Source of the DNA: Stentor roeselii
Taxonomy: Eukaryota; Ciliophora; Heterotrichea; Heterotrichida; Stentoridae
Direction of reading: 5' to 3'
NCBI GenBank assembly: GCA_006503475.1
Contig: RSEH01000378.1
Location: 1-32,273, forward strand
Length of the DNA stretch: 32,273 bases
Shown here: in pieces, positions 10,614 to 25,257 of the stretch
How the letters are laid out: every line of letters begins with the position of its first letter
Position numbering within the stretch: position 1 is the first letter of the stretch
Position numbers and translations under genes: made by a program
Notes under the pieces: generated by a model
What the model was told of the DNA's origin: nothing
Databases searched by the model: none
What the model saw: the letters and a program-made list of their open reading frames with translations, nothing else

Positions 10614-12017
10614 ATGGGAATCTGCTCAACAATTTTAAAACCTTCAAACAAAGACGAAAAATACCGATCAATCTGCACATACCCCCGGGTCTGCACAGTG
10701 AACATAAAAAAGAAGTTAAACCGTACATCAAGTGACCAATACGACTTCCACCTAACAGAGCCAACTCAATTAAAAACCGAAGAAGTGGTAGTCGATTCGA
10801 TCCACTACATAATAAGCCAGTGCATCCTTCCAGGTATCGACCCTCGCGGGCAATTCTTCAAAAAATGCCAGGACAACTGCCTGGTGCTTTACTCGTCCTG
10901 CTCAATTTTCCTGGGACTTTTCGACGGCCACGGGCGAGAAGGTTTAAAAGTAGTGAATTTTTGCTGCTTTTTCGCTGAAAAGTTCTTTTTAAGCCAGTGG
11001 GACCCTTCAGTACTGTCCACATAGTGCTCGGCCGTTGATTTTCTGACGAATCTCTGTGAAAAGTGCGACGAGGAGCTAAGTCAATCACTGTCGAAAATCG
11101 ATTCAACTTATTCAGGGACGTAATTTTTACTTAGAACTGCAGTTTTCATGATAATTTCTTCAGGAGTGGCGTACACTGCAAGTCTAGGCGACTCTCGCGG
11201 TGTTCTCTGCACCCGACGACAGGTGAACCGTCTGGTGCCGTTCGTGCCTCATGTAGAAGACGACATAATCCAAACTCTGAAAGAATCTCGTCCGCTGCGC
11301 GTTGATGAGTCGCTCTTCGAAGTCCAGCTGACCCGCGACCTGAAGCCCGAAGACCCTGAAGAGTACTCCAGGATACTCGAAGCAGGCGGCAGGGTCAAGC
11401 GGCTCATCGACGACGACGGCAATAAAATCGGGCCGTTCAGGGTCTGGGAAAGCGACTCGAACACCCCAGGCCTGACGATGACCAGGTCCATTGGCGACTC
11501 GGCCGCCAAAAGCATTGGATTGGTCTCGACTCCGACTGTCACATCACTTAAGCTTAACTTCAAAGAAGACTTGTTCATTGTCATCGCCTCTGACGGCATC
11601 TGGCATTGCATGGACAACTCGGATGTCATCAACTTCGTCGAAATCTGCAGGCCGATGACTTGCAAGGAAATCATCAGGCATAAGGACTCGGAAGTCAGTG
11701 TCGCTAACAGCTGCATCGCTCAGATCTTGTGTGAAGAAGCTCGGGTCAGGTGGCTGCAAGTTGTTGAAGCTGAAGATGTTGAAATTGATGATATCAGTTG
11801 TGTTGTTGTGGAAGTCTTCACTCATCAGGAACCTAAAAAGAATGTCTTGAAAAGTAAAAGTGTCAAAGTTAATATGAGTGAAAAGGAAAAACCTGTGATG
11901 ATTATGGAGAAGAATAAGAGGACTGGAAGAACTCCGACTGTTAAGTTGACAAATATCAGGGACCCTAAGCGAGGAAGTCACGTGTCTCCGATTGACTTTG
12001 ACTTTACTGACCAGTAG
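10614..12017 (+). CDS. PP2C-family Ser/Thr phosphatase, 457 aa, two introns
   Basis: Three exons (10614-11009, 11025-11119, 11135-12017) joined by two 15-nt introns give 1374 nt, or 457 residues. Splicing restores the conserved S-G-T-T-A-V run across intron 2. PP2C motifs in order: KKCQDN (Asp87 of the alveolate/plant-style N-Q-D-N motif), GLFDGHG (Asp104), YTASLGDSRGVL, EAGGRVKR, TMTRSIGD, VIASDGIWHCMDN and a final D-D-I-S; these retain the metal-binding aspartates. Mn/Mg-dependent phosphatase activity is therefore expected. The start MGIC carries Gly2 and Cys4, suggesting myristoylation plus palmitoylation and a membrane location (inference). The C-terminus beyond the catalytic domain (about 80 residues) is basic and likely disordered. 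Confidence 0.93.
11010..11024 (+). other. 15-nt intron 1 of the PP2C gene
   Basis: Sequence GTACTGTCCACATAG, phase 0. Retention would end translation at the TAG formed by its last three bases. Splicing joins QWDPS to CSAVDFL. Confidence 0.9.
11120..11134 (+). other. 15-nt intron 2 of the PP2C gene
   Basis: Sequence GTAATTTTTACTTAG, phase 2. Retention gives an immediate TAA. Splicing restores the PP2C run S-G-T-T-A-V-F, which is strong evidence for the boundary. Confidence 0.95.
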
Positions 12018-12173
12018 AAGGTATTTAAAGACTCAAGCTTTATTCAGTGCTGCAATTCAAGCACTTCATTTTTATGATAATTAAAGATTGGTTTAATAGT
12101 ATTCTTTAAGTCCTTATTCATCAAGTTTCGCAAGTTGAACATAAAATCTTCTATTTCTTAGTAATTTATTATA

Positions 12174-18613: not shown

Positions 18614-20695
18614 ATGTCTTTAAAGGCGATTGTTGAAATTGTTCTGCATGTGGATAGTTTTCGCAATATCGACTTGTTCCAGCAAGGGTTTTATCATCTG
18701 CAGTTTGAAATCTTTCATTTGGAAAACAACAGAAAGGTCTCAGCTTCGCCTTATAATCTGGTAACCTCAGAAACAACGAGTAAGAATTCAGTGAAACTTC
18801 CAGCAAGCATCGACGACATCTTCTACAGAACTCAGAGTTTTTTCATAAAATTCTTCGAAGAAGAGGTGGAAATCAACGAAATTGCAGTCTTCCGGACAGA
18901 AATCGATTTAACTTCAGAGAAATCACTTCCCTTAACACTAAACTGCAGTTTAATGTTCAGCGAAATAGGTGGTCGTGGAAATAACAAACATCCAAGACAT
19001 TCTTGCTCTTCAATGCAAGACTTTAAACTCGAGTCAAGCCTGTTGGTGAAGATTCAAGACTACGAAGAAGGTTTGAACCAGTTCTTTCCAATCATTTTCG
19101 ACAACAGTCATTTTTGCCTTGTTTCTACTTCGCTGCATCTTTTCATCATCGACTTCCGCTACCGGGCTTCGAGGTCATCGAGTGACTTGAATGAAGACCT
19201 GGACATCTCCGAGGCCCTTGCCGAGTCTTTTTTTCCCTGCAGCGATGATCTGCCCGCTGGCCTTATCGACGAGGTCCACTCGAAGTTCATCTTTCCGCTG
19301 AGCGTCAGCCAGACGAGAAGCGCCCTGCTCATCAACTTGTTAAAAAAACTCTCAGAGCCCGGACATGAGGTGACAGTTGAGGACTTACTTGTTCTTTCCA
19401 ATGACACGATTCAAGCTTTGATATTAAAAAGTCCTTCTGAAAACTTCAGCAGACACCTGGAAGACCTTGACCCTTGCAAGGTAATTAAAAGGATTTTAGA
19501 GGAAATTCAACTCATTGCTAGCAACTTGCATTATGTTTTGTTTGAATTCATTGAAGTACTTCAGATGGTTTCGAGAAAAGCGACTCTTGCTTTCATGCTG
19601 GTTTATAATAAAGAAGTGAATGATAGGTGGGGTGAAAGTATTTTTAAAAAAATCACTCAAGTCGGGTCTTTCACAGAATTCGCTGAGGAGAACTTGAAGC
19701 ACTTACATAAAGAAACAGCCAGAAAACTCAGAAAATCAGAACATTACAAAAACAAGGAATTACCGAAAGTTGGAACTGAGAAGTATTTTCCCAATGCAGA
19801 AACGCATCCTATTTTATTTTTAGATATTTTTTCACGTGTGCCGTATAAAGAACAGCAGTGGAAGCCGAGCATGGTCAAGTTCTGCATGGCGAGTAAAGGC
19901 AAGTCGAAGCATCTTATTGTTCTTGTTCATGGGTTTCAAGGAAGTTCATTCGACGTGCGTTTAATAAAGAACCAAATTTCGTTACTTCGTCCAGACACCA
20001 TTCTGATGAGTTCTCATATGAATGAAGGCGAGACAGAAGGCGACATTCTTTCAATGGGCGAGCGTCTTTCAGATGAAATAACTCAGTTCATCGACGAGTG
20101 GTGCTCAAAAGACTCCTTGGAATTCATTTCTTTCATCGGCCACTCATTAGGAGGCCTGATAATCCGAGCATGTCTTCCCTACTTAAAGCCCTTATCACAC
20201 TTATTCCATTTTTTCATATCTTTTTCCTCCCCACACCTCGGATACATGTACAACTCTTCAAAACTCGTAGGGGCCGGAATCTGGATTCTGAAAAAGTGGA
20301 AAAAAACTGAAAGTCTCAAACAATTATCCATGAACGACGCTAGTGACCTGAGAAAATCTTTTCTTTTCGCACTCAGCTCTGCTGAAGGACTCGGGTGGTT
20401 CAAACATGTCGCTTTTGTTGGAGCTCATCAGGATAATTATGCACCTTTTGAAAGTGCAAGAATTGAAGTTCAACATAAAGCACTCGCTGAGCCGAAAGGA
20501 AGGGTTTATGTTGAAATGGCTACAAATATTTTAAGCAGGGTCAGGGCTGAGCAGATTTTAAGAATTGACTGTAATTTGAAGTTTAAGAAAAAAAACTTGG
20601 ATAGCATGATTGGAAGAGCTGCGCATATTCAGATGTTGGATAATCATGTCCTGCTTCAGATGGTTTTTAACTGCTGTGCGCATTTTTTTAACTGA
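18614..20695 (+). CDS. FAM135-type (DUF676) putative serine esterase/lipase, 693 aa
   Basis: The start is the ATG at 18614; the frame can be extended to a TTG at 18599, which I reject as a start. The N-terminus FRNIDLFQQGFYHLQFEI matches the FAM135 N-terminal domain (y/fxNxDLFqxGxY). The C-terminal third is the alpha/beta hydrolase: VLVHGFQGSSFD (oxyanion loop, about 437-448), FIGHSLGGLIIR with nucleophile Ser511, then QDNYAPFESARIE, the counterpart of the family's q-D-x-y-v-P-x-x-S-A-R-I-E, with acid Asp607. DNHVLL near residue 678 could supply the His. The triad appears complete, so esterase or lipase activity is plausible; the substrate is unknown. Stop TGA. Confidence 0.92.
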   Translation: MSLKAIVEIVLHVDSFRNIDLFQQGFYHLQFEIFHLENNRKVSASPYNLVTSETTSKNSVKLPASIDDIFYRTQSFFIKFFEEEVEINEIAVFRTEIDLTSEKSLPLTLNCSLMFSEIGGRGNNKHPRHSCSSMQDFKLESSLLVKIQDYEEGLNQFFPIIFDNSHFCLVSTSLHLFIIDFRYRASRSSSDLNEDLDISEALAESFFPCSDDLPAGLIDEVHSKFIFPLSVSQTRSALLINLLKKLSEPGHEVTVEDLLVLSNDTIQALILKSPSENFSRHLEDLDPCKVIKRILEEIQLIASNLHYVLFEFIEVLQMVSRKATLAFMLVYNKEVNDRWGESIFKKITQVGSFTEFAEENLKHLHKETARKLRKSEHYKNKELPKVGTEKYFPNAETHPILFLDIFSRVPYKEQQWKPSMVKFCMASKGKSKHLIVLVHGFQGSSFDVRLIKNQISLLRPDTILMSSHMNEGETEGDILSMGERLSDEITQFIDEWCSKDSLEFISFIGHSLGGLIIRACLPYLKPLSHLFHFFISFSSPHLGYMYNSSKLVGAGIWILKKWKKTESLKQLSMNDASDLRKSFLFALSSAEGLGWFKHVAFVGAHQDNYAPFESARIEVQHKALAEPKGRVYVEMATNILSRVRAEQILRIDCNLKFKKKNLDSMIGRAAHIQMLDNHVLLQMVFNCCAHFFN

Positions 20696-20818: not shown

Positions 20819-22027
20819 ATGGATACCTTTGGGAATAAGGTAATAATGTCGAATAATACTGAGAGTCTTCTTTCAAAAATCGATTCTATCAACCCTGAAT
20901 CAATCCTTCGCAACCATAACCACAGCTTGCCAGGTCTTGAATCTCAAGAAATCTTCTTAGATGCGATTACCTCAGTGCCTGATCCAGGTGAATGCAGTTT
21001 TACTTTAAACAAGCAACACGAGTTAAATCTGAATTTAAGAGTCCAAGATATGAGTCTTCTTTCATCAGTTTTTTGTGAGTTTTATAAATTTCAAAGCGAT
21101 TATCTAGCTGTTTGTGGAAAGACTTATGCTTATGTCTTTGATCAGAAATTTAAAACTCTGCAATCGTATTGTATTAAGACTTTAAATGAGGACTTTTTGA
21201 CAGTTTCTTGGGGAGTCTTGAATGGCGACTTGTTTTTAGCTCTTGCTGGGTACTTAGGAAATATTTATGTTCTTAATTTGCAGAACTATAAAAACCAGAA
21301 GATACTTGAAGGTCATGTAAAGTCAATAAACTGTGTTCGTTTCATTCCAAGTAACTGCGAACTTCTACTTTCAGCTTCAGAAGACCTGAGTATCCGTTTA
21401 TGGCACATTAAAACCCAAGTAGTAATATCCTTATTCAAAAGCCACATCCAAGGAGTAATGTCTCTAGACATTCACCAAAGTCAGCAAATTTTCATATCAG
21501 GTGGTAAAGACTCAGCATTAAAGATTTGGTCACTTCTTCCAGTGCAGTCAAGCATTGAATTAGCGAGAGTCTGGTCAGGAAAAGGTTTCAACTCATTAGA
21601 AATCCTGAAGCCGACCTTCAGCGAGCACAAACTTCTTCAAGGTTACGTCGACTGTGTGAAGTTTTTCGGAAATCTGATAATTTGCAAGAGCCAAACAGGT
21701 GAGATCATCATTTGGAAGACAACAGGAGCTGAACATGACATTATAACAGTAGTTAAAGTGCTTCGCACCTCGAGTATCGGCGAGATCAATGTGAAGTTCA
21801 CAATTTGCAAAAGAAAGAAGATTCTTGTCATCGGGAATAGTATTGGAGAGTGTTTTTTTTATAAACTTGACTGGACCCACTCTGATGAAATCATGTATAA
21901 ACTAAGTGAAAATGAGGGAATTGTCAGAAGTGTGGAAGTCGGGAAAGAACATGTCATTATTTCTAGCACTTCAGGTAAGCTGCAGATTTACTCTTTCGAT
22001 TTTTTTATATCAAAGGTCATTTATTAA
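20819..22027 (+). CDS. EED: ESC/EED-like WD40 protein, Polycomb PRC2 subunit, 402 aa
   Basis: About 70 N-terminal residues precede a WD40 propeller. Blades are visible at 165-195 (EGHVKSINCVRFIPSNCELL to SIRLWHI) and 209-237 (IQGVMSLDIHQSQQIFISGG to LKIWSL). The key identifiers are the EED-type blade YVDCVKFFGNLIICKSQTGE (276-295, human counterpart YVDCVRWLGDLILSKS) and VKFTICKRKKILVIGNSIGE (325-344). The order and spacing match EED rather than a generic WD40 protein. In PRC2, EED scaffolds the E(z) methyltransferase and reads trimethyl-lysine. Two or three of the four cage aromatics appear replaced (see findings). Nuclear chromatin is the expected location. Confidence 0.85.
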   Translation: MDTFGNKVIMSNNTESLLSKIDSINPESILRNHNHSLPGLESQEIFLDAITSVPDPGECSFTLNKQHELNLNLRVQDMSLLSSVFCEFYKFQSDYLAVCGKTYAYVFDQKFKTLQSYCIKTLNEDFLTVSWGVLNGDLFLALAGYLGNIYVLNLQNYKNQKILEGHVKSINCVRFIPSNCELLLSASEDLSIRLWHIKTQVVISLFKSHIQGVMSLDIHQSQQIFISGGKDSALKIWSLLPVQSSIELARVWSGKGFNSLEILKPTFSEHKLLQGYVDCVKFFGNLIICKSQTGEIIIWKTTGAEHDIITVVKVLRTSSIGEINVKFTICKRKKILVIGNSIGECFFYKLDWTHSDEIMYKLSENEGIVRSVEVGKEHVIISSTSGKLQIYSFDFFISKVIY

Positions 22028-22159
22028 TAAATGGGGAGCGTTTTTACCTTTTCTAGTTATAAATCAGACCTTCTCCTCACCCCGCCTGTCGCCGCTCTTG
22101 ATTGTCTCACTAAATGTAAAGGCTAGGAAGGGAAAAAATCTGATATTTCTTATTTTCTT

Positions 22160-23305
22160 ATGAAGAGTAAGACCATGCTTTCAAAACCGTTTATTGATAA
22201 ACATGCTTTTAGGAAAATTACTCGTGGTAGTTTTATTGACGGCAAAGAGGAATTGATTTTTTCTGTTTTTTGCAACTTGAAAAAGCAAATCAATTTAAAT
22301 GAGGTTTTAGCTGCTCTTGTTATTTATTCGGCATCCAGTTGGGAGGAAAAATGCGAGTTTGCTTTGAAGATAGGAGACCTCGACGATAACGAAGTAATAA
22401 GTAAAGACGAAATGTTAGTCCTTTGCACTACTTTTATCCGCAGCATAGGAATAGTAACTCGAATCCCTCTATTGAAAAAAACAAACATGAAAAAATTATC
22501 CCAAGAGTGCTTTAAAGCAGCAGACAGTCACCCAGACGGTTCAATCACGATATTCGAGTAACCACTAAACAGGCTGAAAGACTGGGTACAGTTCAACCCA
22601 GTAATCCTGAAACTTCTTCAGATGTTTAAGCCAAGAAAGGCAAACGCAGAGTCGATTTCCAGTACATTCGAAGGAACGAGTTTCAACAGCATAAACAACT
22701 CATTTAGAGAAAAAATGACTGAAAAGAAACTAAAACGTGACCATGAAGCCGCTTTGGAACTTTCAGAAATCTTCAAAAAACTCGCAGTTGAAAGAAAACG
22801 ACCGACAGTAGCGAGAATCTTTCAAGTTTTTCTTTCAAGTAAGCATTTTGTGGATGATGCGAATTATCTTTACAATATGTTTCACTTCAAATTGAAAACT
22901 GAACTTTCACTTGAGCAGTTAATTGAAATTTTAAATAAAAGGGTCATTAAAAGACCGAGTTTTCTGAAGAAAAGGAACTTGAGTGTTGTTTTTAATTCAG
23001 AAAAAAAGGATGAAGAGGTTAATTTTCGAAGAAGCTTTAGAGAAATGGATGCTTTTACTGCTTTGAAACTGGAAAAGATCTTTGATAGGTTTGATACGAA
23101 TAAGGACGGGGAAGTTGATTATAAGGAATTGAAAACTGGACTTAAGGAGGATTTTGATAAAGTTGTTATCAGGGATCTTTTTAAAAATCATGTCAGGAAA
23201 GGCAAAAGTAGTTTGGGGATTAAGGAGTTCATTGAATTATTCGCTCCTGCTAATGTTGAAGTCACTGCTGAAAGTCTCAGACATTTGCAGTCGAGACTTA
23301 AGTAA
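22160..23305 (+). CDS. EF-hand calcium-binding protein, 376 aa, one intron
   Basis: Exons 22160-22557 and 22573-23305 (1131 nt, 376 residues) are joined by a 15-nt intron. EF-hand 1 loop is at 73-84 (D-L-D-D-N-E-V-I-S-K-D-E). EF-hand 2 loop is at 122-133 (D-S-H-P-D-G-S-I-T-I-F-E), preceded by CFKAA and followed after the intron by LKDW. EF-hand 3 is at 307-318 (D-T-N-K-D-G-E-V-D-Y-K-E), the most canonical. A further loop near 340 (VRKGKSSLGIKEF) is degenerate. The N-terminal half has the layout of NCS/calcineurin-B-like sensors; residues about 145-300 are a charged linker with a second helical unit. A calcium sensor is likely, targets unknown. Confidence 0.92.
22558..22572 (+). other. 15-nt intron of the EF-hand gene
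   Basis: Sequence GTAACCACTAAACAG, phase 2. It splits the GAG codon of Glu133, the twelfth (bidentate) ligand of EF-hand 2. Retention gives GAG followed by TAA. Splicing gives ITIFELKDWVQF. Confidence 0.95.
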
Positions 23306-23685: not shown

Positions 23686-25257
23686 ATGAGTTCCATTTTT
23701 TATCTAATGGTGTTTTATCAATGCTATAAAATGAAATTCCGGGAAACATACACCGAATTATCAGTCGCAAGACAAGTTCAGCTGGTGTTTCTTTTAACAG
23801 CCTTTATATTATGTGGCATATTAGTAGTGATCACAAAGTTCCAACTAGACTGGATAAGAGACCTGACGATTTCAGAGGCTTCACGCGCCTTCAAAAATCG
23901 TATTTATCACCAAATCGAGAACATCGGCGAAGTAGAAGCATCTTATTTCGAGTCAGAGTTTACAGGATACGAGTACTTTACATTGAACTTGGCAAAAACT
24001 GACGAGATAATCAACGGTTTTTCAAAAGATTACAATTCAAAAGTATTTCAAGAATCTAAGTCATATTCTCAAGATTCAGCAAAAGGAACAGTCGACTACT
24101 CCCATGGTGTTTACTACACGAAATACTCTTCCTTGTCACCTGAAGGCCAATCTTTAGTAAAAAATGAATCATCGTTCAATTTCATCTACCCGGCACTTTA
24201 CACTAACTATTTTTACAATTATTATCAAGGTTACTTTACAGATGAGTTGACAAACAGCTACCCAAGCAGGAAAATAACACCCGGGTACTCCCCTTTACCA
24301 CGAGAATGGTTTTATCGAGGAGTCGATAACGAAGGGCAAGTAGTCATCACCGAGCCTTACAAAGACGTTGATCAAGGAACTTGGGTAGTTTCACTTTCGA
24401 AAGCAGTAATGAAAAATAAAAAAGTCTTCGGCGTCGCTGCTTGTGACGTCACTTTAGAAGTATTGACTGAAAAAATCAACAAAGTAAAAATTCTAGAAAA
24501 TGGCTTTAGTATCCTTGTAAGTGCAACTGGAATAGTTTTGACTATTCCTGATCAGTGGGTTAATAATGATGAGGATTCTTTGAGGATCTTTGACTCGTCT
24601 ATCACTGGCATTTCTTATGAGACCTGGCTTGAAATAAGAGATAAATCTGATGCAAGTTGGACCAGTGTCACTATTGCAGAGGATGAGGATTTGGGCATTG
24701 AAGCTGCGGATTTAAAGATTTTTAAGAAGAACATCGTTCCGATGTTTCAAAGTAATGTTACACATTACTTACTTCTTGTTGTTGATGAGGTGGATACTGA
24801 TGATGTCAGGGATAACATGATTGATCAGTTTGAGAAGACTTATGAGATACTTTTTTGGGTCATCCTTGCCTTTGGGATCACGGTGGTTGTACTGATTTTA
24901 CTGTTGAGCTTCTTTTTCGGACGAGAACTCACTAAACACTTTTCTGTTGCTGAAGAAATCCTTGGAGGACTGTTGAGAAGAGGCTTTTTTACTCAAAGAA
25001 ACAAACTTTTTGACCATGTTTTTCCGAATAAGGGACTTATGGATATTGAGAACTTCAAGACAGCTGTTTCGGAAAAAGTTATTCAGCTTGAGAAAAAAGA
25101 AAGCAAGTTTGAACATCAGACCTGGTTTAACACTCGACCTGAAGACAACTTATTTTACATTGAATGGGCGCAGCAGTTGTATCCGAAGATTAAAGTCCCT
25201 GTTCAGGTAGAGTACTGGGACCAAAAAATTGAAAGAATCATGTCGGTTTATAAGTAG
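23686..25257 (+). CDS. two-TM dCache_1 receptor with amino-acid-binding signature, 523 aa
   Basis: Topology is a short N-terminus, TM1 at about 31-51, a large extracellular domain, TM2 at about 387-411 and a 111-residue cytoplasmic tail. The ectodomain is a double Cache domain: YSPLPREWFYRGVDNEGQVV (201-220), then EPYKDVDQGTWVVSLSKAV and GVAACDVTLEVL. Residues Tyr201, Arg206, Trp208, Phe209, Tyr225 and Asp254 match in kind and spacing the amino-acid motif known from bacterial dCache_1AA sensors and animal alpha2-delta subunits. No kinase, cyclase, HAMP or VWA domain follows, so signalling must go through a partner. The annotated start is at 23686; an in-frame ATG at 23731 (MKFRETYTEL) would remove a hydrophobic leader and is equally plausible. 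Confidence 0.88.
   Translation: MSSIFYLMVFYQCYKMKFRETYTELSVARQVQLVFLLTAFILCGILVVITKFQLDWIRDLTISEASRAFKNRIYHQIENIGEVEASYFESEFTGYEYFTLNLAKTDEIINGFSKDYNSKVFQESKSYSQDSAKGTVDYSHGVYYTKYSSLSPEGQSLVKNESSFNFIYPALYTNYFYNYYQGYFTDELTNSYPSRKITPGYSPLPREWFYRGVDNEGQVVITEPYKDVDQGTWVVSLSKAVMKNKKVFGVAACDVTLEVLTEKINKVKILENGFSILVSATGIVLTIPDQWVNNDEDSLRIFDSSITGISYETWLEIRDKSDASWTSVTIAEDEDLGIEAADLKIFKKNIVPMFQSNVTHYLLLVVDEVDTDDVRDNMIDQFEKTYEILFWVILAFGITVVVLILLLSFFFGRELTKHFSVAEEILGGLLRRGFFTQRNKLFDHVFPNKGLMDIENFKTAVSEKVIQLEKKESKFEHQTWFNTRPEDNLFYIEWAQQLYPKIKVPVQVEYWDQKIERIMSVYK

Follow-up and report, generated by a model that had tools for sequence, protein, structure and literature searches.

A dCache protein with the amino-acid-binding motif of bacterial chemoreceptors and its 14-member family in the ciliate Stentor roeselii

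The motif and its place among known dCache systems

The Cache domain of the animal receptor mGlyR binds glycine. The Pseudomonas chemoreceptors PctA, PctB and PctC have dCache_1 sensors of the amino-acid type (dCache_1AA). The motif of this type is printed as YxxxRxWY, then Y ... D, and is also described in the eukaryotic proteins alpha-2/delta-1 and CACHD1 (PMC9901441). Other eukaryotic Cache proteins are mGlyR and GPR179 of animals, with a ligand-binding Cache domain (PMC12716839), plant and fungal histidine kinases, and one Naegleria adenylate cyclase (PMC4822843). No literature on dCache_1 in ciliates was found, with thin coverage of subscription papers. The window analyzed here is a 32,273 nucleotide (nt) stretch of the ciliate Stentor roeselii (assembly GCA_006503475.1, contig RSEH01000378.1, positions 1 to 32,273, forward strand). 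It contains an open reading frame (ORF) encoding a dCache protein with all six residues of the amino-acid motif.

The window protein matched dCache_1 (PF02743) in Pfam with an E value of 4.4e-15 and 56.3 bits against a curated cut-off of 45. Twenty distinct solved sequences matched it (E <= 1). Most of these are named as domains of chemoreceptors or sensors, and one is animal CACHD1. Residue equivalences were counted along the PctA row of the family profile alignment, which comprised 14 members including the window protein. In this alignment PctA GYDPRSRPWY...TEPYVD...GVVGGDLSL is paired with window GYSPLPREWF...TEPYKD...GVAACDVTL. The first-pass annotation had named Y201, R206, W208, F209, Y225 and D254 as the match to the PctA set, at intervals of 5, 2, 1, 16 and 29 against 5, 2, 1, 15 and 29. 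Both residues and intervals were as claimed, with one additional residue in the window protein between WF and Y. The PctA numbering agrees with the residues named in PMC11245519 and PMC10104139. The window protein has the dCache_1AA set (Y, R, W, Y/F, Y, D, placed as in PctA) with F at the structural aromatic, a place which does not contact the ligand (PMC10104139). The full motif in the window dCache protein was confirmed. Its reading as an amino-acid motif is well founded but unproven, and the first-pass interpretation is in this sense partly supported.

The distinctiveness of the motif was assessed with the pattern Y-x4-R-x-W-[YF]-x(10,20)-Y-x(24,34)-D. With this loose spacing it occurred in 82 of 200,000 shuffles of the window ectodomain, so the match exceeds chance. 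Among the 18 dCache-type proteins encoded in the S. roeselii genome (the 14-member family and four others), 11 fitted it, compared to none of 38 Chloroflexota dCache_1 loci. This background is a single phylum and comprises those of 83 Chloroflexota dCache_1 matches for which loci were given. All six residues were present in 7 of 13 bacterial-type relatives (one unaligned), which were chosen by similarity or by a part-motif pattern and hence are no background sample.

The window protein resembles the Pct receptors in its dCache_1 sensor, with all six positions as in PctA. It differs from them in being eukaryotic and in having its own 110-residue tail, without the signaling domain of methyl-accepting chemotaxis proteins (MCPs) or a recognizable HAMP. 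Compared to alpha-2/delta-1 and CACHD1 it has two transmembrane (TM) helices, a conserved tail and one dCache instead of two. The proteins mGlyR and GPR179 are G protein-coupled receptors with an EGF-like domain, unlike this two-TM protein. The plant and fungal histidine kinases and the Naegleria cyclase are similar in placing a Cache sensor in a non-animal eukaryote but carry a bacterial-type enzyme output, and none is recognizable in the 14-member family.

A family of 14 paralogues with a conserved tail

The genome (44.4 Mb, 522 contigs, of which the window is contig C320) was searched with the window protein. This paralogue search had been proposed with the first-pass annotation. Fourteen full-length relatives including the window protein were found on 11 contigs. 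The main addition to the earlier description is this family of 14, whose conserved tail domain was matched nowhere else in the genome in two tail searches. All members are single ORFs of 497 to 511 residues and share one layout: a short N-terminus, TM1, the dCache, TM2 and a tail of approximately 110 amino acids. The two TM helices of the first-pass annotation were recovered by hydropathy on either side of the dCache in the window protein and its paralogues. The window protein probably starts at Met16 (508 amino acids) and not at residue 1 of the 523-residue ORF, as the paralogues align from there (alignment A1). Motif residues are numbered on the longer ORF and TM and tail residues on the 508-residue protein. 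Pfam (E <= 0.1) identified dCache_1 in 13 of the 14 members and the related MCP-like_PDC_1 in all of them.

The complete motif was present in ten paralogues. Three members have lost D254 and the nearest paralogue (64% identical to the window protein) has Glu in its place. R206 was missing in two members and Y225 in two, all among the four without D254. The pocket segment was closer to that of the window protein than either neighboring ectodomain segment in eight of the nine other motif-keeping members, while the three motif-losing members showed little or no pocket excess in similarity. Members without the motif did not cluster on the family tree, on which the starred branches require the label to have changed at least twice and 8 of 14 inner branches are weakly supported. 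The ratio of non-synonymous to synonymous substitution rates (dN/dS) between the window protein and its closest paralogue was 0.16 in the pocket, 0.25 overall and 0.30 in the tail, indicating that the tail is under constraint. It is proposed that the family grew by duplication and that some members lost or altered the pocket, as expected for a chemoreceptor repertoire.

Tandem copies were present on contigs C130 (three) and C198 (two). A fragment of a family member with in-frame stops, likely a pseudogene, was observed beside the closest paralogue on C366 (L027:4112-4469). The tandem copies and this apparently decayed fragment fit birth-and-death evolution.

The conserved blocks of the tail are a short basic run close to the membrane, then GIE.L...K.K...L..KE, then a C-terminal box (alignment A1). 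The majority consensus of the box is W..TRP.D..LY..W....YPFN.......W...L, with FN absent in the window protein and its two nearest relatives. Genome searches with two different family tails gave 14 and 12 matches (E <= 1), all within the family; such single-protein searches score the best candidates only. No Pfam match to the tail was common to the members. Single weak matches occurred, such as Syntaxin_2 in one member (E 0.011). No relative better than E 0.4 was found among solved sequences, and no enzyme was recognizable in the tail by Pfam or solved sequences. MCPsignal was absent from the window protein in Pfam and was not found in the genome, in a search whose control matched in 7 of 14 genomes. 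HAMP had no Pfam match in the family or the genome, with the control matched in 12 of 14 genomes. A profile comparison of the tail with seven bacterial HAMPs was weak (P 0.061, probability 0.9%) and HAMP is not claimed. The earlier description of a protein without a known output domain stands, with no shared Pfam match and no MCPsignal. That of "only a 111-residue tail" was right in length, but the tail is a conserved domain across the family and not a stub.

Four other dCache-type proteins were observed in the genome. Three of these, family B (L028:2441-3964 on C520, L029:2386-3897 on C344 and L035 on C35), have the same layout as the 14-member family. The dCache_1 matches of L028 and L029 fall short of the curated cut-off, and L035 was placed through its similarity to L028 alone. 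None of the three has the motif Arg (Leu, Thr and Ser at its place). The family B tail differs from that of the 14-member family, and a profile comparison of the two was weak (P 0.0067, probability 5.7%). It is HAMP-like by eye and has the ending [YF]PxNE[LM][YF]; its profile comparison to HAMP was also weak (P 0.014 over 23 columns). When one family B tail was searched against the genome, all three genes of family B were recovered, along with two matches at chance level (E 0.72 and 0.92). The fourth protein (L026:3166-5997, contig C510) has 944 residues with hydrophobic segments, TPR repeats and a C-terminal VWA. Its dCache_1 match of 34.3 bits is below the cut-off and all six motif residues are kept. 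To our knowledge, with no search made, this architecture of dCache, TPR and VWA is not known from elsewhere. Family B and the C510 protein resemble the 14-member family in having a dCache-type sensor in a membrane protein.

Table 1. Features of the receptor ORF in the window.
Feature	Position	Strand	Basis
ORF as first given (523 aa + TAG)	23686..25257	+	Single open frame, standard code
Probable coding sequence from Met16 (508 aa + stop)	23731..25257	+	Alignment start common to paralogues
TM1 core, residues 16-34 of 508	23776..23832	+	Hydropathy; similar place in 14/14 paralogues
dCache region (predicted extracellular)	23833..24846	+	Pfam dCache_1 match spans 23887-24546; solved-sequence, profile and fold matches
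Y201 = PctA Y121	24286..24288	+	Profile alignment; Tyr in 14/14 paralogues
R206 = PctA R126 (carboxylate contact in PctA)	24301..24303	+	Profile alignment; Arg 12/14
W208 = PctA W128	24307..24309	+	Profile alignment; Trp 14/14
F209 = PctA Y129 (structural aromatic)	24310..24312	+	Profile alignment; Phe/Tyr 14/14
Y225 = PctA Y144	24358..24360	+	Profile alignment; Tyr 12/14
D254 = PctA D173	24445..24447	+	Profile alignment; Asp 10/14, Glu in closest paralogue
TM2 core, residues 373-391 of 508	24847..24903	+	Hydropathy
Tail, conserved domain (predicted cytosolic)	24925..25254	+	Alignment, genome tail searches, dN/dS
Tail C-terminal box W..TRP.D..LY..W....YP..........W, residues 464-500 of 508	25120..25230	+	Alignment A1

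Neighboring genes and genetic code

The receptor ORF is flanked on both sides of the same contig by eukaryotic genes, with products including RCC1 repeats, PP2C, a FAM135-type esterase, WD40 with EF-hands and a ubiquitin hydrolase. The PP2C gene lies at 10614-12077. Two 15-nt GT-AG stretches cover its two internal in-frame stops, which is taken as a sign of predicted heterotrich mini-introns. The FAM135-type serine esterase (DUF676, DUF3657) is a single 693-residue ORF at 18614-20695. The WD40 protein with EF-hands (20819-23302) is on the same strand as the receptor ORF and ends approximately 380 bases upstream of it.

Seventeen receptor ORFs end in TAG (eight), TAA (six) and TGA (three). None of the 161 Trp in 18 ORFs needs TGA. 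Across four neighboring genes a 15-nt GT-AG stretch covers 6 of 10 in-frame stops taken as internal. The stop usage and putative 15-nt introns point to a heterotrich with the standard code. In Blepharisma stoltei introns are 15-16 bp long and UGA is read as Trp (PMC9942806), the latter unlike the receptor ORFs here.

Proposed function and alternatives

The window protein is, with somewhat better than even confidence, a two-TM receptor for amino acids with the layout of a bacterial chemoreceptor. The short N-terminus would be inside. TM1 would lead to a double-Cache sensor outside the cell, and TM2 back to a tail in the cytosol, in a putative dimer. By analogy with PctA, the ligand in the pocket of the distal Cache is probably a free L-amino acid or a close relative. 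D254 would hold the amino group, a contact which we take to be made by D173 in PctA, with Y201, W208 and Y225 around the ligand. Bacterial Cache receptors relay binding through a membrane-proximal module and TM2. Ligand binding to the Stentor protein would shift TM2 and thereby alter the tail. As the tail shows no enzyme, the receiver of the signal would have to bind it. The tail may recruit or gate a separate partner, whether channel, cyclase or scaffold, none of which is favored. R206 would contact the carboxylate as R126 does in PctA (PMC10104139).

Several results weigh against this proposal. With Phe also accepted at the place of the first Tyr, 7 of the 38 Chloroflexota loci fitted the pattern, with the S. 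roeselii proteins still at 11 of 18 and the shuffles at 50 of 100,000. The R-x-W-aromatic ... Y ... D part is therefore common in dCache_1 and the full Tyr set alone is distinctive in this comparison. This slightly lowered confidence in a receptor for amino acids and raised that in another ligand. D254 was expected among the top conserved columns, yet its rank was 77 of 336 in the ectodomain, and Glu takes its place in the closest paralogue. In the motif-keeping member L003 the pocket was 53% identical compared to 57% in the preceding distal part. Four of the 14 members showed lower additional hydrophobic peaks in the hydropathy scan. N-glycosylation sequons were barely enriched outside (1.01 compared to 0.70 per 100 residues, 16 proteins), so the topology rests on hydropathy and homology. 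AlphaFold confidence was low for the whole protein (pLDDT, the predicted local distance difference test, 39) and the ectodomain (38). Three bacterial-type dCache rows from viral contigs were supplied for the whole protein and four for the ectodomain, so the dCache fold of the ectodomain model was partly put in. PctA and PctB were among the best fold matches of this model (pLDDT 38) in the PDB, and the amine receptor PacA tied with the amino-acid receptors. The protein could also be a co-receptor.

The first-pass annotation had suggested a subunit of a channel or chemosensory complex. The protein may act as an accessory subunit to an ion channel or other receptor, like alpha-2/delta for calcium channels or CACHD1 for Frizzled/LRP6, with an amino acid tuning trafficking or gating and the tail as a docking site. 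This is unlikely, as the Pfam families listed for the members (E <= 0.1) include no VWA domain, whereas in alpha-2/delta it is inserted in the dCache. The conserved tail is also unlike the lipid-anchored alpha-2/delta (PMC9901441), and the family profile matched bacterial sensors (down to 4.5e-20) better than alpha-2/delta (only E 0.5-0.8). Retention of the dCache fold for another ligand (an amine, a compound like gamma-aminobutyric acid (GABA), taurine or a purine), or for none, is quite unlikely. The motif residues are altered in 4 of 14 paralogues and the Arg is missing from family B, so ligands may shift readily. The solved PctC contains GABA and the solved Mlp37 taurine; PctC matches five of the six positions and has Phe in place of Y144. 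Against this, all six positions fit in the window protein. The amine type (dCache_1AM) is recognized by an Arg place that is not conserved (PMC10104139) and an insertion upstream of the pocket; R206 is present here, as in the amino-acid type. The purine receptor McpH has Gly at the Asp position (PMC11245519).

A recent bacterial gene, either contamination or a fresh transfer without a function of its own in the cell, is very improbable. The nearest relatives outside the genome are bacterial, with this genome the sole eukaryotic one searched, and it has been argued that eukaryotic Cache domains appear to stem from horizontal transfer (PMC4822843). Contamination was rejected as eukaryotic genes lie on either side of the receptor on one contig. 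The 14 paralogues are diverged and spread over 11 contigs, and the similarity to bacterial relatives, at 19-37% identity, lies in the Cache part. Of 28 plasmid matches, the ten listed were confined to residues 186-321 and did not reach the tail. No plasmid or phage match among those listed held the complete protein, tail included. A genome-contig scan gave an 11-residue match only, to a Chloroflexi contig, with no dCache ORF among those listed there.

Paramecium is attracted to bacterial products such as glutamate (PMC8208649) and Tetrahymena to amino-acid mixtures (PMC3226668). The available text of these two papers names no two-TM dCache receptor. It is tentatively suggested, as a possibility short of a probable one, that the family represents the missing chemoreceptors for amino acids in one ciliate, as an expanded two-TM dCache class. 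Such a class would keep the bacterial sensor and transmembrane signaling, with the MCP hub replaced by its own cytosolic module linking amino-acid binding to ciliary or membrane-potential control. The 14 genes, ten with the complete motif, form a short candidate list with testable residue-level predictions. They add a eukaryotic use of a sensor which spans bacteria to human alpha-2/delta, the gabapentin target (PMC9901441). The family may be how S. roeselii senses amino acids.
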